From a virus: a stretch of 20,779 bases of DNA. The notes under the pieces were generated by a model. That model saw only the letters and a list, made by a program, of their open reading frames with translations. It ran no database searches and was not told the origin of the DNA. The DNA is taken from positions 1-20,779 of the IMG/VR virus record IMGVR_UViG_3300006802_000750; one strand, written 5' to 3'. Both the position numbers and the translations under genes were made by a program. Shown piece after piece: positions 3,085 to 18,766 of this stretch (positions are counted from its first letter, which is position 1; each line of letters begins with the position of its first letter).

Positions 3085-6000
3085 TTAGTTTACAGCTAAA
3101 TCTCTTCCACCGAATTGTCCAGTAGATGTTGACCATGGACTTGGTACCCAACCTTTTTCTTTAGCTTTTTTAGAAAAATACCTAATCATTGATGTTTGCC
3201 CATAATCTGGACCTGGTGTAAAGTTACTATCTTCCAAAGCTTTTTTTAGTTTAACTCTTAGTTTACTCATTAAACTACCAGGACTTGTATCACTTAAAGT
3301 TCTTTCTACTCTAAAACAAGGACACCTTTTGTTAGCAAATTCATTATGTCCTTTTAAAATATTCATCCATAAATCTGAGCCTATACCACCAGTATTGTCC
3401 AAAACTTTTGGGTTAGTAACTTCAACGTCTGATTCTCTTGTTTTAACAATAACTGACATATTATTACCCATTTTAAGTAATCCTGTTTTAAATAATAACC
3501 ACAATAATGTCCATTCCAGTGTTTCTTTTTGTATTCTAGTTGGGTGGTCACCACCTTCATCTTTACCATACACACCTATTTTATCACAATTCGCTATCAT
3601 ACTAACACCTAAAGACCTACTATTATGTCCCAAAGTGTGAGCACCAATTTTATTATCTGGTCTAGCACCATACAAAGTACCTTCTGGACTATTATCATTT
3701 CCTTCAGCTCCTCTACCAATTAAAAAATGATAACCAATACCAGCAAATCCTCTATTTATATGTTCTTGATTTATTGTGGAAACTGGGTCATTACCATAGT
3801 TTATTCCAGCGGTAACGTGAATAATAATATAATCTAGTTTATCGTCATCTCTACCTCTAAAATTAGAATTACCGCTTTTAACTGATTCACTTTCTGTGGT
3901 GCTTTCTGGTTCAAAACCACCTTGTCTTTGTATCGCTTTTTCTTCTTTAACTTTTTTCCTTACTTTATTTAAAAATGTTTGATTAACCTTAGCTACTAAT
4001 TGTGTTATTTCAGGCATTTTGTGAAATGGTACTCTAACACCAGTAAACGTAGTTGTCATTGTATTTGGTTGTATATTGTGTTCCACATCTAAAATTAAAT
4101 ATGGACCACTAAACATAGGTATATGTCTAAGTGAAAAATACATGGTTGGTTGTATACATACATTTCCCATAGCTTCTATTTTACAAGTATAAGACCTAGT
4201 TTTATATATGTTAAATAAACTTAATCCTTGAGTTAAAATACTTTTATCATTAGCTGATTGAGCCATAGACTCTGTAACAGCAAATGATTCTGAAGTATTT
4301 TTAAATTGACTTTGGTCTAAAGTTATTCCTTTAAAAATTCCTTGACTTTGTATTCCAAAATCAACCGCAAACGCAACTACTTTATTATTTTTTTGTGGGT
4401 CATAATTTGTAGACAACAAAGGATTTTGTGCTGTCCTGCCTAATAAAAATGAATCGTTTTCATACTTACTTTTTTTACTTAATTCACCACCAAGTTGTGT
4501 AGATGGTGGTCCTACATACTGACATAAAAATTTAGGTCCAGAATCCAAACTATCCACTTCCAAATGAGTACCAAAAATTGCATCAGCTTCATCTTGAGTA
4601 CTTAACTTTGGTATAGGGGTATCTCCTTGGGATGTCATACCATAAAAATTAATGTAACTAGGCATCCCCATAAAATTAAAGAAATTACCTTGTAACAAAG
4701 AACCTATAATTGTTAATAAACTTGCTTTTGCATTGTTAGGACTACCAAAACTCATGATAGCATCAGTAGTAATAATTGCTTTATCTCCCACATCTCTATT
4801 TGCAACATCATAAAATAGAAAATCTTCGAATAAGTATTTGTTACTGAATTCTTCACCACTAACCCATTTATCATTTAATGTTTTAAATACCTGATATTGT
4901 TCCAACTTATTTTCATCACTTTCATATGTTGAATTATTAGTAAACTCTTCTATTTCTGTTTCTGTGGTCTCTGGTAGAACTTTTTGAAGTTGTATGAATA
5001 ATTGATTTAGATAATCAAACTGACTAAATTCCCAGGACTCAATAACTTCTGTTTTAATCCTTTGTAAGAATTCTCTATTATCGATATTTTGGTCAGCTCC
5101 AGCTTCTATTCTAGCTGTCACATACATTCTTATAATTTTTCTTAAATTTTTAATATTAGTAACATTAAAATCTATATTAAACTCTCTAAAAAATTCAGTA
5201 ACATAATTTCCAGCATCATTATATATTAAATTTAAAGTATAACCCGAAGATAATGAATCACTATAAAACCCAACATTTTTTCTTAATTCTTTCCATTCAT
5301 TCGGATATAATGTGGTTGATTGAGTTAATGAAATATCTGGTGGTAAATTTCCTTGATAGTTTTCAAAATTAATATATTGTGTAGCTCCCGAAGAAGGTGC
5401 TATACTCTTAAATACTAATATATCCACATCTTTAGGGTTATAGAAATTAAAAGCAGTTTGGTGTGATAAGAATTGTCTTAGTGTCACATTTATTTTATCC
5501 AACTGTGTTTTACCTAAATTATAACTTAACTGTGTATTACTTTGTGTTGTATTAACTTTATCTTGGTCTATCTTTAAAAATTCTCTTAATAATTTTTGAA
5601 AGTTCAAAGACATAATATCTTCCTCATCATAAAATACCTGTGGGTCTGGGTCAAAATATTTTGTAAAGTTTAAAAAATATTCTTCAAACCTATCTAATAT
5701 TTCTGGTGTAAATATATCAAAAAGTTCTTCTATTGAAGCATACTCTTCATTATTTACAATGTCAAAAGACAACTGTTCTTCTTGGTCACTTAATATTCTT
5801 TTTAAATATTGGTCTGGTCTAGGTAATGTATTTGGTTTATGTTCAAAATAACCATAATTTGATAATCCCCAAACTAATCTAACAGCACCATTAGTCACAT
5901 TTTGATTATTTTTTAAATAATACGGACTTTCAACTTCAAATTCTAATTGTGATTTTTTCATACCTCCCTCACATGGAAATAATAAATATTGAGCTGTTGT

Positions 6001-9000
6001 ATACCCACTTAAATAACCTTCTCTAGTTAAGTCATAATAATTAAACCATAAATTAGCTTTTGTTTGTATTGGGTCCGTATCTATTGAAGTTATTGTAAGT
6101 TCTTCAGCGTTTTTTAAATATAAAGATTCTTGTAATATTAATTGATTAATTTGATTATCTGTTATTGGGAAACCACTAATATTTAAACCATCATACAAAA
6201 GTTCACCAGTTACAAAATAATAAATATAGTTATTTAGTTCTGGATAAAACCCTAAATTTAATTGGTCTGTGGTTGGTGCTGGAGACCATTGTCCACCAAA
6301 ACTAATTAATGCATTATTAACTCCCACATTTAAATCATACGTGTACCCTAAACCATTTGTATTGTTGAAGTATGTATTAGCATCAAAATTATCCCATACG
6401 TCACTTAAAAAATCATTACCATTGTCAATAAATTCTTTATATCTATGCCATATAGCACCATATTTTAAAATCCAAGCACTAGGTAATGGGTGTACCGCAG
6501 ATACTTGATTTAACGTTTTAGCTATGTAATCACCATATATATTATAGGTTGATTGATTCGTTAATAATGTTTTTTCTCTTAAAGTTGGTAGTGGTAATGA
6601 ATTCAAAAATAAGTAAGCCGCTGACTTATATGGATTATCAACATTATTAATTTCGTTAGAAACACCTTCAACTAAACTATTAATAAAATAAGGTGTATTC
6701 AATAATGAAGTTATTTGTTTAGAAAAAATCTTACCATTGTAATCATTACCATATTCTAAATTACCTTCTGTTGTAATTAAGTTTTGATTACACACGTATT
6801 CTGTTCCCTCCTGATATTGTACCGTACCATAAAAAGTTTCCCAAGAATTTCTAGTATTTTGATTATTAACAAACCTATCTTGTACCTTATTAGATAATTC
6901 TGTTAATGCTGTTTTTGTTGCCCAATCACCATCAGTGTAAAATTGTATGTTTTCTACAACTAAAGATGTTGCATTATTTGGTATTATTGAAGCGAAAACT
7001 TTTTGGTCTGCTTGGTAATTAATACTTTGTGAAATATTGTTTAAATTTTCATAACTAGATATATCTATACCAGCAGCTAAATTATTTACAGTCCAAGATG
7101 TGTTTGGTGATGTTGAAACAAAATGTGAAAAAGGAAAAGTTTCCAAAATATTTTCATTTCTAATGTTTCCAGAAATTAAAACAGAATTTAAGTTATCCAA
7201 AGTTTCTTGTATGTCACCATCATTTAATTGATAAGTTAAATTTTTAAATTCGTTAAAAGGTGTCAATGTAAAACTAGAATCATTTACTTTAGTCCTAATA
7301 TATGGTGTATTAAATTGGTCTCTTATTAATAGTTGGTAATTGTTTAATGGTGATATTTCTTGTAAATAATCTAAATAAGTATTGTAATTAAAGTTTTGAT
7401 TTTTAAGTAATTCATTAAGGTCAAGCAAACCACTTAAATATTCTTTTATATTAAAAGCCTCTATTTTTGATAATTCGTAAAATGCATTTTTACTAACATT
7501 TTCTTTTAATCTAGTTGATAAACCAGAAAAAACAGAAAATACTGTAGACCTATCCCAAATTTCATAATTGAATGGAACTACAGATTTATTAATATAAACT
7601 TGTTCTTCACCTAACTCAAATGATGTAATAGGTATCCAATTACCACCAACACTATTAACTGAAAATTCTGGTTTGGTATCAGAATTACTGATAAGTTGAG
7701 CTTTAAAAAATTCTTCCACAAAATAAACTTCTGGCCACAATATATTATCATAAGCCTTTGTTTGACCTAATACTTTTGGTGAACCTGGGTAAGTACTAAC
7801 ATACTGTGGTCCATTTTCATCAGTTTCTTCAATATAATAATGTGGCCAAGGGTAAACTATAACGTCTTCATCAACACTACTAGGATTACCAGGTCCTTTA
7901 ACAGCATTTAATCTATCTAAACTATCTCTAACCGCAAAAGCTTCTGAATGTGTTTCATCCATCAATCTTAAAAATGTGTCAGCGTGTGATATAAATATAG
8001 CAAATATATTTCTTATCGTTGGATTAAACCCTAATGATTCTATAACTACAGAATTTACAGCTGAAGTTAATTCATTTTCAATTTGTGTCCTTTTTGTATT
8101 AAATACTGTTATTATTTTACCTATTTTATCTTCAAAAATATCAAACCTAAACCAATCACCCGTACTATCTTCAAAGCCTGTAGGTGGTGTTGTTATAAAA
8201 TCATCTAATTTTATATCGACAGGTATGGATTGTTTACCTCCATTGCCAAAAGTTTTATTTCTTAATAAAGATTCATTACCTTCTTTTATTCTTTTTTTTA
8301 TATTTTCGAAAGCTTCTTTTTGTTTTACTGGATTATCCCTATATTGTTTTTTAAATTGGTAATATACTACGTCTGTAGATATATCAACTTGTGGACCACT
8401 AACTGAATTTATATCTGTATCAATATATGTTGACCTCCAACCACCAGAAGTTAATATTTTATTTCTATATAATGTTGAACTTTTATCATAAGTTTCAATA
8501 TCATCCAAAGCATCTAAATTATAACTTTTTAATTTTTTTTCTATATCATTTTCTAACTCTTTTACTCTTTGTATTAAGTCATCTATTGTTATATCTGGTA
8601 AATTTTCACTAATTAAACCTTTTGATTTGTAAGCAGCATATACTTGACTTAAAATTTGTCTTCCACGACTAGTTATAAAATCAGACTTTTCATCCTCATT
8701 AGTCTCTATTTGGTATGATTTAGAAAACATATATGGAGCTACTCTCATTTCTTGTAGTGTAATGTCAGCTAATAACGCTGTCACTCTACCTTTAAAATTA
8801 CAAACTACATTATAGTTTCCTGATGTTGAATCAAATGATGCATTAAATTTTTCCAACATTAGTTGGTATTCTACCGCTTTACCATAATATCCCTTTAATT
8901 TTAATTTAAATAATGGATATGGTAGTTGAAAAAAAGCGGCGTATGGTGAATTAGCTCCTTGTTCAAAAAGTGTTTGTCCTCTTACATCAGTAAAAGTTAT

Positions 9001-9483
9001 ATTTACTATTGGAGTAAATGCTCTACTTAATGAGACTGAAATATTATTAATTCCAAAAGATTCAGAATCAATTTTATTTCTAATTTGTTCATTAAATAAT
9101 AATTGACCATTAGCTCCTATTGTGCTAGTTTGTATCCTTTGGTTTAGTGAACCAGCGTCAGTACCAAATCCTTTACCAGTTTGTGTATCAGTCCAATCAC
9201 TAGTGTAATAATCTTTACCTTGTGGTTTTAAAAAATTTATTTCACCTTCAAAAACATCAATAAAAGCCTCTGGTGTTTGATTATCTACACCGGCACCACT
9301 TATTAGTTTACTTCTTGGTACCACTCTAGCTTTTAAACTAGCATATATTACCAATTCTTCAGATTTAACCAATCTATCTTTTACTCGTCCACCTTCAAAA
9401 ACTCTGTTTGGGTCTACCAATAAAATATTGTTTTCTGAAAATTCAACTAATACATTATCACCATTAGATATTTCATTTGCCAT
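3085..9483 (-). CDS. Giant baseplate hub-like protein with C-terminal N-acetylmuramoyl-L-alanine amidase domain
   Basis: This 2132-aa protein is probably a baseplate/hub component that carries the peptidoglycan-cutting activity for infection. The N-terminal part contains FKLKLKGYYGKAVEYQLML (about 195-215), a pattern I associate with phage tail structural proteins. Around 1770-1820, GNVCIQP...FSGPYLILDVEHNI...TTTFTGVRVPF resembles the late-control-D/gp27-type hub fold. Residues about 1880-2065 are a T7-lysozyme-type (Amidase_2/PGRP) amidase: IIIHVTAG with His1889, YHFLIGR with Tyr1918, and GHNEFANKRCPCF with His2046, Lys2052 and Cys2054. These match the T7 lysozyme zinc ligands His17, His122 and Cys130 and catalytic residues Tyr46 and Lys128. 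Roughly 35 extra residues precede His2046. The roughly 1500-residue middle is unassigned. It follows the LysM-like wedge gene by 14 bases. Amidase call very firm; hub role inferred. Confidence 0.88.
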   Translation of the reverse strand: MANEISNGDNVLVEFSENNILLVDPNRVFEGGRVKDRLVKSEELVIYASLKARVVPRSKLISGAGVDNQTPEAFIDVFEGEINFLKPQGKDYYTSDWTDTQTGKGFGTDAGSLNQRIQTSTIGANGQLLFNEQIRNKIDSESFGINNISVSLSRAFTPIVNITFTDVRGQTLFEQGANSPYAAFFQLPYPLFKLKLKGYYGKAVEYQLMLEKFNASFDSTSGNYNVVCNFKGRVTALLADITLQEMRVAPYMFSKSYQIETNEDEKSDFITSRGRQILSQVYAAYKSKGLISENLPDITIDDLIQRVKELENDIEKKLKSYNLDALDDIETYDKSSTLYRNKILTSGGWRSTYIDTDINSVSGPQVDISTDVVYYQFKKQYRDNPVKQKEAFENIKKRIKEGNESLLRNKTFGNGGKQSIPVDIKLDDFITTPPTGFEDSTGDWFRFDIFEDKIGKIITVFNTKRTQIENELTSAVNSVVIESLGFNPTIRNIFAIFISHADTFLRLMDETHSEAFAVRDSLDRLNAVKGPGNPSSVDEDVIVYPWPHYYIEETDENGPQYVSTYPGSPKVLGQTKAYDNILWPEVYFVEEFFKAQLISNSDTKPEFSVNSVGGNWIPITSFELGEEQVYINKSVVPFNYEIWDRSTVFSVFSGLSTRLKENVSKNAFYELSKIEAFNIKEYLSGLLDLNELLKNQNFNYNTYLDYLQEISPLNNYQLLIRDQFNTPYIRTKVNDSSFTLTPFNEFKNLTYQLNDGDIQETLDNLNSVLISGNIRNENILETFPFSHFVSTSPNTSWTVNNLAAGIDISSYENLNNISQSINYQADQKVFASIIPNNATSLVVENIQFYTDGDWATKTALTELSNKVQDRFVNNQNTRNSWETFYGTVQYQEGTEYVCNQNLITTEGNLEYGNDYNGKIFSKQITSLLNTPYFINSLVEGVSNEINNVDNPYKSAAYLFLNSLPLPTLREKTLLTNQSTYNIYGDYIAKTLNQVSAVHPLPSAWILKYGAIWHRYKEFIDNGNDFLSDVWDNFDANTYFNNTNGLGYTYDLNVGVNNALISFGGQWSPAPTTDQLNLGFYPELNNYIYYFVTGELLYDGLNISGFPITDNQINQLILQESLYLKNAEELTITSIDTDPIQTKANLWFNYYDLTREGYLSGYTTAQYLLFPCEGGMKKSQLEFEVESPYYLKNNQNVTNGAVRLVWGLSNYGYFEHKPNTLPRPDQYLKRILSDQEEQLSFDIVNNEEYASIEELFDIFTPEILDRFEEYFLNFTKYFDPDPQVFYDEEDIMSLNFQKLLREFLKIDQDKVNTTQSNTQLSYNLGKTQLDKINVTLRQFLSHQTAFNFYNPKDVDILVFKSIAPSSGATQYINFENYQGNLPPDISLTQSTTLYPNEWKELRKNVGFYSDSLSSGYTLNLIYNDAGNYVTEFFREFNIDFNVTNIKNLRKIIRMYVTARIEAGADQNIDNREFLQRIKTEVIESWEFSQFDYLNQLFIQLQKVLPETTETEIEEFTNNSTYESDENKLEQYQVFKTLNDKWVSGEEFSNKYLFEDFLFYDVANRDVGDKAIITTDAIMSFGSPNNAKASLLTIIGSLLQGNFFNFMGMPSYINFYGMTSQGDTPIPKLSTQDEADAIFGTHLEVDSLDSGPKFLCQYVGPPSTQLGGELSKKSKYENDSFLLGRTAQNPLLSTNYDPQKNNKVVAFAVDFGIQSQGIFKGITLDQSQFKNTSESFAVTESMAQSANDKSILTQGLSLFNIYKTRSYTCKIEAMGNVCIQPTMYFSLRHIPMFSGPYLILDVEHNIQPNTMTTTFTGVRVPFHKMPEITQLVAKVNQTFLNKVRKKVKEEKAIQRQGGFEPESTTESESVKSGNSNFRGRDDDKLDYIIIHVTAGINYGNDPVSTINQEHINRGFAGIGYHFLIGRGAEGNDNSPEGTLYGARPDNKIGAHTLGHNSRSLGVSMIANCDKIGVYGKDEGGDHPTRIQKETLEWTLLWLLFKTGLLKMGNNMSVIVKTRESDVEVTNPKVLDNTGGIGSDLWMNILKGHNEFANKRCPCFRVERTLSDTSPGSLMSKLRVKLKKALEDSNFTPGPDYGQTSMIRYFSKKAKEKGWVPSPWSTSTGQFGGRDLAVN

Positions 9484-15064: not shown

Positions 15065-17176
15065 TTAGCTATTCATATTCATATTTGGATACCTATTCAA
15101 ATTTGGGTATCTAGCTAATTCTCTTTCATTATTCATATCGGGAGCTGTAGTTAAATTAGTCTCAATTAATGTAGCTTTTAAATTCTGCATAAATAAAGAA
15201 TTACCTATTAATCCTCTCCAATTGAAATCACCCATGTTTATTCCATTTAATTCAATTGGTATTTTTGTAGGTAACCCTGTAAACTCTACCTTAATATTTT
15301 TTTCTGGCATATTTGTTGTATTATTAACTAATGAACCTAAATTTGCTCCTCTAGCTCCAGCGGTTAAATCAACACCACTCACAGTGTCATTTACTGAAGG
15401 TATTATAAATCCATCGTTAGTTAAAACAGCTTTAGTTTTTCCTTCTGGTACTGTAAAATCATTTGCATTTGTACCATTAACATTTAATGTATTAACATCA
15501 AAGTAACCTTCTTGTAATTGAAAACTACCCTCACTCATTTCTGTAAAATTATTTAATGCATCTGTAAGTCCACCAAAAAGAGTACCTGTTAAAGCTTGTG
15601 CAACATTACCTACATCAGCTGTACCTTCAGTAATATTTTCGAATTCTGTTCCAAAAATATTTTCAAAACCACTTCTTACTAATGAACCTACAGAATCACT
15701 TAAATTACCTAATTCGTCAGAACTAAAAGCTTTATTTATAGCTTGACTTAAGTTTGTAGATATTTCTGATACGTCTAAACCTTCCATAACACCACCTAAT
15801 AAAGCGGCATCTAAAGCCTTTGTATTGTCGTCTATACTTTTTAAAAATCCAGTTTGTTCTGCCATCAACTCTTTTTCTGTCATTTGTTGTTGGTCTTGAA
15901 CTTCTTTTAACTTATCTAACTGACTAGCTGTTAAATCCTCTATTTCTACCGCTTCTTCTAATCCAGGAACTTTTATTTCATATTTTCCAGTTTGTTGATT
16001 TAAACTAGCCATGCTAGTAACAAATTCCTGCATGTCTTCTCTACCTTCTAAATCAAATGAGAACTGATTTTGTACTGCTTGGAATTTAGTTTGTAATTTA
16101 ATCATTGACGCCAACTCATCTTTATTCATACCTAGTGCATCTGCCATAGCACGTAATTGTCTTTGAGCTGTAGGTGGGAAAGATATTTCTCCAGTCTCTT
16201 CATTAAATACTGCTAGTTCTTGACCTGCTTGTACTAATGAGTCTTGTAATGCCCCTAAATCATTTGTAGCCATGTACATTAATTTAAATGGGTCGGCTAA
16301 GTCTCCAACAGCTCCACCAATTACTTGTAAGTTAGCAGCCAATTCTATAGCACCTTCTGGGTCCATTACTTTTTCAGCTAAAGTGGCTGTTGTCGCCATA
16401 CTAATACCTAATTTTTGTGCTTGTGCAGCCATTTTTGCAAATCCTCTAACACCATCAGAAAAATTATAGGTATTCATCATACTCATATTTTGACTTATGG
16501 TATCCATGAATTCACCAACATTTAGACCCATTTGTCTAGCTACATTAGCCATTTCATTACCTTTGTCTATAGCTTCACCAACTGAAAGACCCATTTGGTC
16601 AAAATGTGTAACCATTCTAGCTGTTTGATTAGTTGTCAATCCGATAGCTTCTGTAAATATACTTAATCTAGATATGTCTTCATCAGACATTAGTACGTTT
16701 CTACCCATTTCTTGTGATAATGCATGCGTTGTTCGTAAAACATTATCTAATGAAACACCATATCTTTGAGCTTCTATCGAAGCTTGCATTATGGTTTCAT
16801 TTTGCATTTGTTGTAGTTGACCTACTTGACCTAAATCTTGAACTATTGATTTTCTTATAGTTTGTTCTTTTTGTAAAGCAGCGACAGCTATGTTAGTAAG
16901 TGAAGTAAGTGTTTCTTGTGCTCCTTCAGCTCCCCTAATCGAATCTGCAAGGTCTGTCCATAACGATAAATTTTTAGATATTGTACCAGTTAATTCACTT
17001 TGACCTTTGTTAAAATCTGTTGTTGAATTAGCAGCACTACTAGTTGTGGATTTAGCTGCACTATTCCAACTATCCCATACTTTTTGGTCAATATTTACCT
17101 TTTCTAGTTCCTCTCTTTGACTAACAGTTAAATTTTGCCAATTAGTGTTGATTGGTGAAGCATTAAATCTTGCCAT
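15065..17176 (-). CDS. Tail tape measure-like protein
   Basis: The 703-aa product is predicted to be mostly helical and rich in Ala, Gln, Met and Leu, with long amphipathic stretches such as VGEAIDKGNEMANVARQMGL and GFAKMAAQAQKLGI. This is the texture of phage tape measure proteins, which set tail length and are ejected with the DNA. At about 1.5 angstrom per residue it would correspond to a tail of roughly 105 nm, close to T4-like tails (T4 gp29 is 590 aa). I see no convincing membrane helix. The C-terminal 130 residues are less helical (FTGLPTKIPIELNGI) and may dock to the baseplate. It directly follows the gp26-like gene and its overlapping ORF, the classical place for a tape measure gene. 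The start is ATG with leader ATAGAAAAAGAAC. A minor structural role other than ruler cannot be excluded. Confidence 0.8.
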   Translation of the reverse strand: MARFNASPINTNWQNLTVSQREELEKVNIDQKVWDSWNSAAKSTTSSAANSTTDFNKGQSELTGTISKNLSLWTDLADSIRGAEGAQETLTSLTNIAVAALQKEQTIRKSIVQDLGQVGQLQQMQNETIMQASIEAQRYGVSLDNVLRTTHALSQEMGRNVLMSDEDISRLSIFTEAIGLTTNQTARMVTHFDQMGLSVGEAIDKGNEMANVARQMGLNVGEFMDTISQNMSMMNTYNFSDGVRGFAKMAAQAQKLGISMATTATLAEKVMDPEGAIELAANLQVIGGAVGDLADPFKLMYMATNDLGALQDSLVQAGQELAVFNEETGEISFPPTAQRQLRAMADALGMNKDELASMIKLQTKFQAVQNQFSFDLEGREDMQEFVTSMASLNQQTGKYEIKVPGLEEAVEIEDLTASQLDKLKEVQDQQQMTEKELMAEQTGFLKSIDDNTKALDAALLGGVMEGLDVSEISTNLSQAINKAFSSDELGNLSDSVGSLVRSGFENIFGTEFENITEGTADVGNVAQALTGTLFGGLTDALNNFTEMSEGSFQLQEGYFDVNTLNVNGTNANDFTVPEGKTKAVLTNDGFIIPSVNDTVSGVDLTAGARGANLGSLVNNTTNMPEKNIKVEFTGLPTKIPIELNGINMGDFNWRGLIGNSLFMQNLKATLIETNLTTAPDMNNERELARYPNLNRYPNMNMNS

Positions 17177-17188
17177 GTTCTTTTTCTA

Positions 17189-17196
17189 TATAAATA
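17189..17196 (-). promoter_or_regulatory. Candidate late promoter element TATTTATA
   Basis: Minus strand TCTATTTATATAGAAAAAG, with the 8-mer 12 bases before the tape measure ATG. The flanks make a short palindrome, CTATTTATATAG. Same motif and orientation as before the other late genes. Confidence 0.42.
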
Positions 17197-17211
17197 GATT
17201 ATTAATGATTT

Positions 17212-17430
17212 TTAAAGTCTACGGGAACTATTTTTTTGTTTTTCAACCGCTTCTTTTTTCTTTTCAAACTCTTCTATAAGTTTGTTAAGATAATACCTAC
17301 GTTCATATACTGGCATTAACATTAAGTCTTTATGATTGAAATTTGCAAATTTTACTAAATAATAGATTTCATCAAGCACACCTTGCCTATACTCCGAAGA
17401 AAGGACGAAAAAAATGGGCACCAAGAACAA
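17212..17430 (-). CDS. Overlapping ORF before the tape measure: probable frameshifted extension of the gp26-like protein
   Basis: This open frame overlaps the last 44 bases of the gp26-like gene and sits +1 (equivalently -2) to it. The frame is open from a stop upstream in the overlap, and its earliest possible initiator is TTG at 17430. The first ATG only appears about 36 codons from the end, whereas every other gene here uses ATG. The encoded stretch looks like real protein: VLDEIYYLVKFANFNHKDL, then MPVYERRYYLNKLIEEFEKK, then a basic coiled tail ending SSRRL. A poly-T run sits in the overlap. The best reading is that it is made as a C-terminal extension of the gp26-like protein by frameshifting, as in lambda gpG/gpGT. 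Alternatives are initiation at TTG 17430 or at GTG 17379, or a sequencing indel splitting one gene. It ends 35 bases before the tape measure ATG. Confidence 0.7.
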   Translation of the reverse strand: MFLVPIFFVLSSEYRQGVLDEIYYLVKFANFNHKDLMLMPVYERRYYLNKLIEEFEKKKEAVEKQKNSSRRL

Positions 17431-18145
17431 CCGAAGTTGTAACCTCTTCTCCCGATGGTGCCCTAACTGTTACTTTTAAATCCAACCCAGGTTCATTATC
17501 TTTAACATAATTTCTAAACTCTTGGGAATCTTTTATTGGCATTGACTGAATCATTTGTGCTAAATTACCTTTATCTCGTTCACCTTCTATTTCTTGGATT
17601 AAATATTCTAACCTTCTTGTTACTTTTGGTGATATTCTTCCTTCATATTGTGAATCAATATTAGCTAATTCAGTTTCTTGTGTTGAACTTAAGAATTTAA
17701 ATTTAATTACTTTTTTTGTAATTGGTAATGTGTATGTAAATTCACCTTTTTCATCAGCCACTAAATTAAACTCTTTCATACTAACATTACTTAAGTCATG
17801 ACTGTGTGTAAATTTTTGTTTTGTTTTTGGGTCTGTTAATGTGAATTCATAGGTGGAACCAAAAGCTGTGTTTCTTAAAAATATTAAAATAGCTTGTTTA
17901 TCACACTCTAACATTTCAGAAATATTAACATCACTACCTAGAATTTTTCTTCTAAGAAGTTCATCAATAATATTTCCACTTTCAATTATGTTAGGTGAAC
18001 TTAGTAAATTTTCATCAGATGCTGTTAAGTATGTTACTTTAACCGAATCCAACTTGTTTCTATAAAACATACCTTTAGATGGTAATTGTACTACATCGTA
18101 TGGTATATTAGAATAAGATGGGTCTGCGTATTCTCTTGGGTCCAT
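17387..18145 (-). CDS. T4 gp26-like baseplate/tail assembly protein, possible tail assembly chaperone
   Basis: The 252-aa product matches my recollection of the T4 gp26-type (T4_baseplate) family: VQLPSKGMFY at residues 19-28, VTYLTASDENLLSS at 37-50, a helical stretch IIDELLRRKIL at 59-69, then CDKQAILIFLRNTAFGSTYE at 81-100. A beta-rich middle and an acidic/basic helix (about 170-200) follow. The C-terminus ends GAHFFRPFFGV, an aromatic end also common in tail assembly chaperones. T4 gp26 (208 aa) is a baseplate hub assembly factor. Here the gene directly precedes the tape measure with a second ORF overlapping its end, the layout of gpG/gpGT chaperone pairs. It has its own leader with a TATTTATA motif, downstream of the tail-tube terminator. 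Family call moderate to good; chaperone role is inference. Confidence 0.78.
   Translation of the reverse strand: MDPREYADPSYSNIPYDVVQLPSKGMFYRNKLDSVKVTYLTASDENLLSSPNIIESGNIIDELLRRKILGSDVNISEMLECDKQAILIFLRNTAFGSTYEFTLTDPKTKQKFTHSHDLSNVSMKEFNLVADEKGEFTYTLPITKKVIKFKFLSSTQETELANIDSQYEGRISPKVTRRLEYLIQEIEGERDKGNLAQMIQSMPIKDSQEFRNYVKDNEPGLDLKVTVRAPSGEEVTTSVVLGAHFFRPFFGV
17408..17414 (-). other. Candidate programmed frameshift site (T7 run) at end of gp26-like gene
   Basis: The minus strand reads CAT TTT TTT CGT in the gp26-like frame (His244-Phe-Phe-Arg), a run of seven T. A +1 or -2 slip here enters the overlapping frame and continues GTC CTT TCT TCG, giving a fusion of about 312 residues that ends at 17212. 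Phe-tRNA can re-pair after a -2 slip on the run. Transcriptional slippage or a homopolymer sequencing error would look the same. Confidence 0.5.
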
Positions 18146-18183
18146 ATTAAATTTAAAATAATCTTATTTATTAGTTTATAACG

Positions 18184-18191
18184 TATAAATA
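18184..18191 (-). promoter_or_regulatory. Candidate late promoter element TATTTATA
   Basis: Minus strand ATTATTTATACGTTATAAAC, with the 8-mer 38 bases before the ATG of the gp26-like gene and about 33 bases past the tail-tube terminator. A promoter is required here if the terminator is efficient, which strengthens the case for this copy. Confidence 0.5.
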
Positions 18192-18223
18192 ATAGATAAA
18201 TAATTTTCTAAGTACATAGTTAT

Positions 18224-18252
18224 AAAAAAAAATCCACACTTTTGTGTGGATT
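18224..18252 (-). terminator. Rho-independent terminator after the tail tube gene
   Basis: On the minus strand AATCCACAC (18252-18244) pairs perfectly with GTGTGGATT (18239-18231) around the loop AAAA, followed by an unbroken T run (18232-18224). It lies 25 bases after the tail tube stop. This is the strongest terminator in the window and would let the abundant tube protein be made separately from the baseplate genes. Confidence 0.93.
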
Positions 18253-18277
18253 CTTAAATATTATTTTATTTTTAATT

Positions 18278-18766
18278 TTAGTAAACCAAAATACATCTGT
18301 CTGGTCTTAGAGTTGCTGAAATAGTAGCGATAGCATCATCACTATAACCTAAACTATCAAAATTTACATCTTGTAAAAATGTTCCTTGTAATATCCATTT
18401 TTCAACTACAACACCTGTAGGGTCTAACATTTCTAAATCAATATCTTTCTTATATCCCGCAGCATACCCCATTCTACCAGTAACGGACTCAGCGTGAAGT
18501 CTTACCCACTCCATTAAAGCTTGTGCTGCTGAAGGACCAATAGGGTCTCTAAACGTAACACTAATGGTGTTCCAAGTAAATCTACCTGCAACATAAGTAG
18601 ATGTGTTTAGGAAAGGAATTTCTACTGCATTAATATTAACAGCAGGTCTAGAAGTACTCTCCACATACCATTCATTAATTCCCAAAGATGATGGAAATCT
18701 TAAAATAAACCTATTTTTCTTTTTAGGTTCATACGGTATGGGCATTTTCATTAATAAATCAGCCAT
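18278..18766 (-). CDS. Tail tube protein (T4 gp19-like)
   Basis: The 162-aa product has the length and texture of T4 gp19-family (Phage_T4_gp19) tail tube monomers, which stack as hexameric rings to form the inner tube. Visible family-like features are KKNRFILRFPSSLGI near residues 16-30, the strand VNINAVEIPFLNTSTYVAG (about 43-61), FTWNTISVTFRDP (about 63-75), an alpha-helical SAAQALMEWVRLHAES, then DIDLEMLDPTGVVVEKWILQ and the final strands DAIATISATLRPD. The gene is followed at once by a very strong terminator and preceded by a 143-base leader, consistent with separate high-level expression of a major structural protein. The ATG is preceded by AAAAAAGAAAAAATAAC. No sheath gene is adjacent; it must lie outside the window if the tail is contractile. 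Confidence 0.85.
   Translation of the reverse strand: MADLLMKMPIPYEPKKKNRFILRFPSSLGINEWYVESTSRPAVNINAVEIPFLNTSTYVAGRFTWNTISVTFRDPIGPSAAQALMEWVRLHAESVTGRMGYAAGYKKDIDLEMLDPTGVVVEKWILQGTFLQDVNFDSLGYSDDAIATISATLRPDRCILVY

Follow-up and report, generated by a model that had tools for sequence, protein, structure and literature searches.

Probable programmed +1 ribosomal frameshifting in a tail assembly chaperone gene from a T4-like branch of phages

How is a short open reading frame (ORF) translated when it overlaps the end of a longer gene and has no ATG near its beginning? The question is raised by a locus on the minus strand of IMG/VR virus record IMGVR_UViG_3300006802_000750, of which positions 1 to 20,779 were analysed (hereafter the window, 20,779 nucleotides (nt) in length). 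Here, a T4 gp26-like gene is overlapped at its end by a second frame, ORF2, and a presumed tape measure gene follows. We propose, with a probability of roughly 0.83, that the two frames are joined by programmed +1 ribosomal frameshifting in a tail assembly chaperone (TAC) gene, which would give a short product, TAC-N, and a fused one, TAC-NC. This explanation appears the most likely one because the P-site TTT and A-site CGN codons of the putative slip are conserved, ORF2 is under purifying selection and no start codon for it is conserved.

Relatives were gathered as viral contigs from protein searches, two of which each listed the 80 best among about 600 candidate stretches, and as annotated phages, T4 being taken by accession. 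We scanned 230 sequences in three frames with profiles for both proteins, the ORF2 profile having been seeded with +1 ORFs. The gp26 profile matched in 228 of them, the others being the window's own copy (L021) and T4 (L025), and ORF2 was recognized in 216 of the 228. Among the 12 sequences left, L048, L015, L192, L185, L201, L207 and L225 end within 3 bases of the gp26 stop, while L113, L211, L208, L221 and L108 continue past it; by eye, L108 and L113 do show ORF2. With near-identical contigs included, ORF2 lies in the +1 frame in 208 of the 216 sequences, in the -1 frame in 8 (L026, L107, L112, L114, L150, L227, L228 and L229) and never in the same frame; counting distinct loci only, the +1 frame is found in 178/186. 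The 44-base overlap and the +1/-2 frame relation given in the preliminary description were both recovered in the window (44 nt from TTG 17430 to the end of the gp26-like ORF at 17387, or 83 nt from the upstream stop; +1, equal to -2). The +1 arrangement is present in Flavobacterium phage immuto, Microcystis phage Mel-JY01, Rhodothermus phage RM378, Listeria phage LIS04, Bacillus phage SP-15 and Streptococcus phage vB_SagM-GXN1. A scan of genome contigs turned up no relative, and a distant DNA search with positions 17000-18300 gave no match among phage records. We split the 178 distinct +1 loci into group A (80 loci, the window's group), group B (75) and 23 others.

Past the gp26 stop, ORF2 is under purifying selection and evolves as a protein, in keeping with the earlier remark that it encodes a sensible one. 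The median ratio of nonsynonymous to synonymous substitution rates is 0.13 and its maximum 0.53, as obtained for 181 of the 241 ORF2 pairs in the identity range, these pairs being related and not independent. Over all 241 pairs, substitutions fall on codon positions 1, 2 and 3 in 26, 18 and 57% of cases. In L012 (5677-5874), ORF2 ends early, with 65 codons open, unlike in its close relatives, and is either truncated or affected by a sequencing error.

We considered whether ORF2 is translated separately, as a distinct gp51 gene, from a TTG or GTG or by re-initiation near the gp26 stop. As the preliminary description had noted, the ORF2 frame of the window holds no ATG before the conserved FFVLSSEYR, but it does offer TTG 17430, TTG 17424 and GTG 17421, and, judged by the window alone, a TTG or GTG could serve as the start. 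Moreover, the annotated start of ORF2 in Mel-JY01 falls within the overlap, and cyanophage-type relatives keep an ATG past the gp26 stop (50/50 distinct loci). Across the 178 loci, however, the stretch before the slip lacks ATG, GTG and TTG altogether in 68, contains an ATG in 39 and only GTG or TTG in 71, and just 30 loci place an ATG 24 nt or less from the gp26 stop. After the slip, ATG codons are scattered (codon index 9 in 13 loci, index 10 in 10, any other index in 4 at most), and the gp26 stop itself drifts from 2 to 25 codons beyond the slip codon. Independent initiation of ORF2 is thus very unlikely in the window's branch, since start codons before the slip are not conserved there. Relatives with a clear ATG of their own, named earlier as an observation that would speak against a frameshift, do exist, yet outside this branch, namely the cyanophage-type loci and a 595-kb phage with a TAATG start in the -1 frame.

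The putative slip lies within the sequence GCC CAT TTT TTT CGT CCT of the window. The T7 run emphasized in the preliminary description is indeed there, but it is not a conserved feature, as relatives carry T6, TTC TTT, TTT CTT or a nearby CCC_A; alignment of homologues showed that the frame relation is conserved and the start codon is not, and what persists at the site is a U6 run whose phase is fixed and which precedes CGN or UGG. The P-site UUU is followed by C, and is able to re-pair with UUC, in the window and in 80/80 group-A loci. Sites were chosen with a picker that selected for +1 re-pairing, and two that it mis-placed (L077 and L062) are still counted as picked. Among the 178 loci the picked site is TTT before CGN in 92 and TTT before TGG in 64, followed by CTT before TGG in 5, CCC before AGT in 4 and scattered variants. 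AAT CCC_AGT may have taken over as the slip site in L214, L217, L219 and L223, its Pro codon being able to re-pair in +1.

The same frame relation could also result from -2 ribosomal frameshifting on the U run, as in gpGT of phage Mu, where a gene of this kind naturally shifts by -2 (excerpt of PMC3498833): the Phe tRNA in the P site would move back two bases and insert an extra Phe (HFFFVLSSEYR). We therefore scored any codon of the overlap for re-pairing in both directions, with no site chosen beforehand. Re-pairing in +1 is possible in all 178 distinct loci and in -2 in 168; 10 loci (L024, L180, L183, L189, L197, L205, L214, L217, L219 and L220) have a +1 but no -2 candidate, and none shows the reverse. 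At the homologous column, +1 re-pairing is possible in 80/80 and -2 in 79/80 group-A loci, while in group B both directions are possible in 69/75 and neither in 6/75 under a strict two-base rule. The base after the P-site TTT is C in 80/80 group-A loci although Arg is mostly encoded by AGA, and such a base is needed for +1 but not for -2. A stimulatory structure downstream was looked for and none was found (the 111-nt fold of the window has z +1.13, and neither group A nor group B has a consensus fold downstream). The +1 direction is favoured because of the 10 loci that permit it alone and the invariant C, and a -2 shift seems improbable.

Codon choice at the site is tightly constrained. In group A, the second, P-site Phe codon is TTT in 80/80 loci and the first in 79/80, while TTC appears 9 to 18 times in each of four other conserved Phe columns; one further Phe column, located past the site in dual-coding sequence, is TTC in 80/80. 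The A-site Arg is CGN in 79/79, compared with 74 CGN and 571 AGA/AGG elsewhere in the same genes (by subtraction); Arg is conserved in just one other column, which reads AGA in 67/80. This A-site Arg is the column with the highest synonymous constraint of 97 in group A. In group B the two site Phe columns are TTT in 74/74 and 69/69; they rank fifth and sixth of 106 columns, the first being the Pro after the A site. Within the window, CGT is used 1.4 times per 1000 codons, a value that describes the phage's own genes and not the host tRNA pool, and the only in-frame TTT_CGN in 13 genes is that at the shift site. TTT followed by C is weakly avoided elsewhere in group A (3.6% vs 9.0% after other NNT codons); no such avoidance was seen in group B.

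Group A has a second cluster of synonymous constraint, made up of a Gly GGG 12 nt before the site and of Pro-Ser-Gly from 48 nt before it, and RNAalifold pairs these two elements. In the window, the resulting hairpin has eight outer pairs and a 3' edge 5 nt before the P-site codon, and reaches -22.5 kcal/mol (z -3.49; 1/200 shuffles as good). In the core stem of group A, positions -51 to -46, counted from the P-site codon, pair with -13 to -8; these six pairs are formed in 95.4% of 432 cells (72 sequences), against 89.3% in shuffles and at most 60.6% when slid (0/500 shuffles reach the observed value). Core covariation is 0.312 compared with 0.193 in shuffles, of which 0/500 are as high, although related sequences can exceed shuffles without any structure. 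Full 6-bp stems are found in 57/71 sequences; 1000 synonymous randomisations gave a mean of 13.2 and a maximum of 25, and permuting codons within columns gave a mean of 38.2 and a maximum of 49. The structure z of group A is -2.21 at the site and +0.32 to -0.62 elsewhere in the gene (39 sequences). For this analysis and for the energy part of the randomisation every second sequence was used. L077 was excluded from the consensus-fold and pairing counts, L062 was kept, mis-placed, in the consensus-fold and paired-change analyses, and both were excluded from the synonymous randomisation, structure z and tree analyses. Overall, the comparison supports the frames, the site, selection on ORF2 and conservation of the hairpin. 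By analogy, the hairpin is a candidate stimulator of the shift in group A, as a 5' stem-loop lowers -1 and can raise +1 shifting, and T4 gene 60 has a zipper-like 5' stem (excerpt of PMC5009743).

We observed that the hairpin loop opens with TCA GGA GAA in most of group A and with TCG GGA GAA in the window (17447-17455, minus strand), and that its Ser and Gly codons are synonymously constrained in group A. Two other candidate elements were set aside: a pseudoknot between the loop AGGA and a UCCU after the site was dropped by eye, since the listed partners seem not to covary, and an internal Shine-Dalgarno sequence (GGGG about 9 nt before the P site) was rejected because the window has no GGGG and the paired changes fit a stem better.

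A hairpin beside a U run resembles the signals of transcriptional slippage (excerpt of PMC5009743), in which RNA polymerase would lose one U in the T run, aided by the nascent-RNA hairpin. Yet, the picked site has no T run longer than 3 in 17/178 distinct loci (16 without the mis-picked L077), and both the codon phase and the following codon are conserved, neither of which slippage needs. We regard this origin of the fused product as highly improbable.

Several observations weigh against a +1 shift or against parts of it. The product is predicted from sequence comparison. As many as 168/178 loci permit both directions, and in group A only L044 disfavours -2 at the column; the tally made at the picker's sites (166 both, 12 only +1, 0 only -2) has its zero built in and is superseded by the symmetric test. 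Six of the 75 group-B loci (five with CTT_T, and L024 with CTA) re-pair in neither direction under the strict two-base rule. The CGN and following columns lie in or next to dual-coding sequence, and the amino acids of ORF2 may explain part of their constraint. L150, from a group that is otherwise +1, has its ORF2 in -1; the end of its gp26-like gene (near 2748) reads TTC TTC TGG and shows no clear slip, which is either an assembly indel or a real change. As for the hairpin, independent compensations are few: both partners of a core pair have changed in 2 cases, where 1.5 were expected (280/500 shuffles as high), and on a tree built without the hairpin region the four variable pairs show 4 same-branch double changes, 31 single changes that keep the pair and 19 that break it. 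Group B shows a weaker hairpin, with z -1.19 and no consensus structure, and the remaining 23 loci have z -0.5 at the site and -0.71 one window upstream. The hairpin cannot be essential to all loci, given how weak it is in group B and the absence of any excess over other windows in these 23. The similarity of ORF2 to gp51 is weak, and the structural match of the gp26-like protein to a known chaperone, presented below, stays under the level at which the tool trusts a match.

Under programmed +1 frameshifting, most ribosomes would read the gp26-like TAC-N through to its stop, while at TTT_CGT the P-site tRNA on TTT would occasionally re-pair one base forward onto TTC, TTTC being taken as one Phe step in setting the frame of the C-terminal segment (TAC-C). 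The predicted TAC-NC is 310 aa long. The hairpin, re-forming behind the ribosome, would probably raise +1 slippage or suppress -1 slippage. By analogy with lambda gpG/gpGT, TAC-N and TAC-NC may coat the tape measure protein and recruit tail tube subunits. From the comparison we infer the product itself, the product ratio, a slow A-site codon, the chaperone role and the effect of the hairpin. The coordinates of the locus are collected in Table 1.

Table 1. Features of the chaperone locus and its neighbours in the window.
Feature	Position	Strand	Description
Tail tube protein gene	18278..18766	-	upstream neighbour; phrog_4542, E 1e-29
TAC-N, T4 gp26-like gene	17387..18145	-	252 aa, TAG stop; zero-frame product
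Hairpin upstream of shift site	17416..17463	-	outer arms 17463-17456 (GGGCACCA) and 17423-17416 (TGGTGCCC)
ORF2 as given by a mechanical ORF finder	17212..17430	-	TTG start, 72 aa
Shift site TTT_TTT_CGT	17405..17413	-	P-site TTT 17410-17408, A-site CGT 17407-17405
TAC-C, predicted +1-frame segment after the slip	17212..17406	-	GTC CTT TCT TCG GAG TAT ...; stop included
Presumed tape measure gene	15065..17176	-	downstream neighbour, 703 aa; from position and weak BLASTP

The gene context agrees with a chaperone, as the gp26-like gene is flanked by the tail tube gene upstream and the presumed tape measure gene downstream. The latter had been called a tape measure gene in the preliminary description; its position and a weak match, in a single BLASTP comparison, to the protein annotated as tape measure in Flavobacterium phage immuto_3-5A (E 1e-4) speak for this, but it has no PHROG match at E 0.1. 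The annotated order is tail tube, hub, tape measure in LIS04 and tail completion protein, hub, tape measure in immuto. The gp26-like ORF matches Pfam PF12322 (30.7 bits, above the cut-off of 24.5) and phrog_150 (E 5.5e-10), the latter being matched by 11/11 A1 members at E 0.1 or better, with no curated cut-off for phrog_150; the family aligns with T4 gp26 in hhalign at E 3.3e-5 and a probability of 72%. ORF2 of the window is weakly similar to the C-terminal half of phrog_634, the gp51 family (E 0.008), which 4/10 ORF2 members match at E 0.1 or better. The ORF2 family aligns with Synechococcus gp51 at E 3e-4 (probability 40%) and with T4 gp51 at E 0.055 (probability 1%). Cyanophage gp51 is about one-fifth the length of other gp51 proteins and shares C-terminal similarity with them (excerpt of PMC3037559), which is in line with ORF2.

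We modelled the gp26-like protein from 62 sequences (pLDDT 83.8). Of 884 chains re-aligned to this model, the HK97 tail assembly chaperone 2ob9 ranks first with Z 5.1, a range that the tool calls inconclusive (91 residues aligned in a chain of 104, root mean square deviation 4.4), and the next chain has Z 4.1. Foldseek of the model against the PDB gave no match at E 0.001, and many matches in a viral structure library are named baseplate hub. Some GenBank records, e.g., MN662249, call T4 gp26 relatives assembly chaperones. By comparison, the locus also has the second ORF, overlapping near the end of the first and joined to it by a predicted frameshift, that is expected of TAC genes. Thus, gp26-type proteins are likely to be the tail assembly chaperones of the T4 branch, as suggested in the preliminary description.

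Elsewhere in the window, a terminator scan of 16900-18300 found one terminator-like hairpin with a T run (18255-18228, minus strand; 0.5 expected) between the tail tube and gp26-like genes, and nothing at the shift site. Rfam gave no score above the gathering threshold over 17000-17700, and ARAGORN no tRNA in the window. A 2132-aa protein is encoded at 3085-9483 (minus strand), with Amidase_2 near its C end (PF01510, E 9e-8, residues 1881-2006).

In T4, the chaperone genes are reportedly 26 and 51; frameshifting is said to be kept in several T4-like groups, with T4 itself having separate genes. The preliminary description had likewise referred to separate T4 genes in the corresponding region, and they are indeed separate, though not in a row and on opposite strands. 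The identification of T4-like tail chaperone genes is not new, judging by the title of Vladimirov, Gautam and Davidson 2022 (Virology 566:9-15), so this kind of recoding was already known; that paper is the reference given for -1 signals of the poly-T type in T4-like TAC-N genes (excerpt of PMC12846349). The locus described here differs from such -1 systems in its +1 frame, its U6 one base off the phase of the -1 heptamer, the CGN or UGG that follows and the upstream hairpin. The X_XXY_YYZ class of -1 sites does not apply to the window, where ORF2 is in +1 and the -1 frame stays open over just 35 codons. The literature searched, parts of papers that did not include the full text of Vladimirov et al. 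2022, showed no +1 shift for tail chaperones of T4-like phages, and the +1 direction, the UUU_CGN/UUU_UGG site and the upstream hairpin look new.

Cyanophage-type loci provide the closest contrast. A query for them listed the best 80 loci, from which 28 identical and 2 short ones were removed to leave 50 distinct contigs; ORF2 was defined as the longer of the two shifted frames. Like the window, Synechococcus phage Sf-FS3 and these contigs have gp26 followed by a short gp51, with U6C at the gp26 end. In contrast to the window, U6C is one base out of phase, reading U_UUU_UUC, ORF2 is in -1 and an ATG stands at a fixed place past the stop, all in 50/50. The place is therefore shared and the likely direction is not, and the shift may not be needed there. 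In L230-L309 and L107, the gp26-like gene ends with a -1 heptamer and a fixed ATG, so gp51 could be made both ways. We tentatively suggest, although this broader scheme is somewhat less probable than its opposite, that a large T4-like branch makes its chaperone by a +1 shift at UUU_CGN/UUU_UGG, with help, in one large group, from a hairpin on the exit side that folds again behind the ribosome and so pulls on the mRNA, while relatives use the same U6 one base off for -1 or a separate start; the direction would have switched in evolution, with place and products unchanged.

The 178 distinct loci offer a natural and deeply sampled collection of likely phage +1 sites; they build on UUU_CGN, the hexamer described for eukaryotic viruses (excerpt of PMC3498833), and their relatives carry -1 heptamers at the same place. 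With such a collection it becomes testable which features determine shift direction and whether +1 can be stimulated by a hairpin upstream. A shift would also explain why a short gene before the tape measure gene is missing or annotated from an internal start in immuto, SP-15, LIS04 and GXN1.

Lambda gpG/gpGT occupies the same gene neighbourhood as the pair of the window. The lambda proteins share their N part, are produced through a shift close to where the first gene ends and act on the tape measure and tube proteins (excerpt of PMC5009743); that shift is -1, while that of the window is likely +1. Mu gpGT (-2) and myovirus HSTV-2 (very likely +1) represent the same kind of gene with a shift other than -1 (excerpts of PMC3498833 and PMC5009743), although Mu shifts backwards by two and HSTV-2 is likened here by kind of gene. 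At the level of the site itself, the closest parallel is PA-X of influenza A, made by a +1 shift at UCC_UUU_CGU that was shown by mass spectrometry (excerpt of PMC3498833): its P-site and A-site codons, UUU_CGU, are identical to those of the window and the same re-pairing argument applies, yet the ribosome is eukaryotic, the preceding codon is UCC there and UUU here, and no homology is implied.
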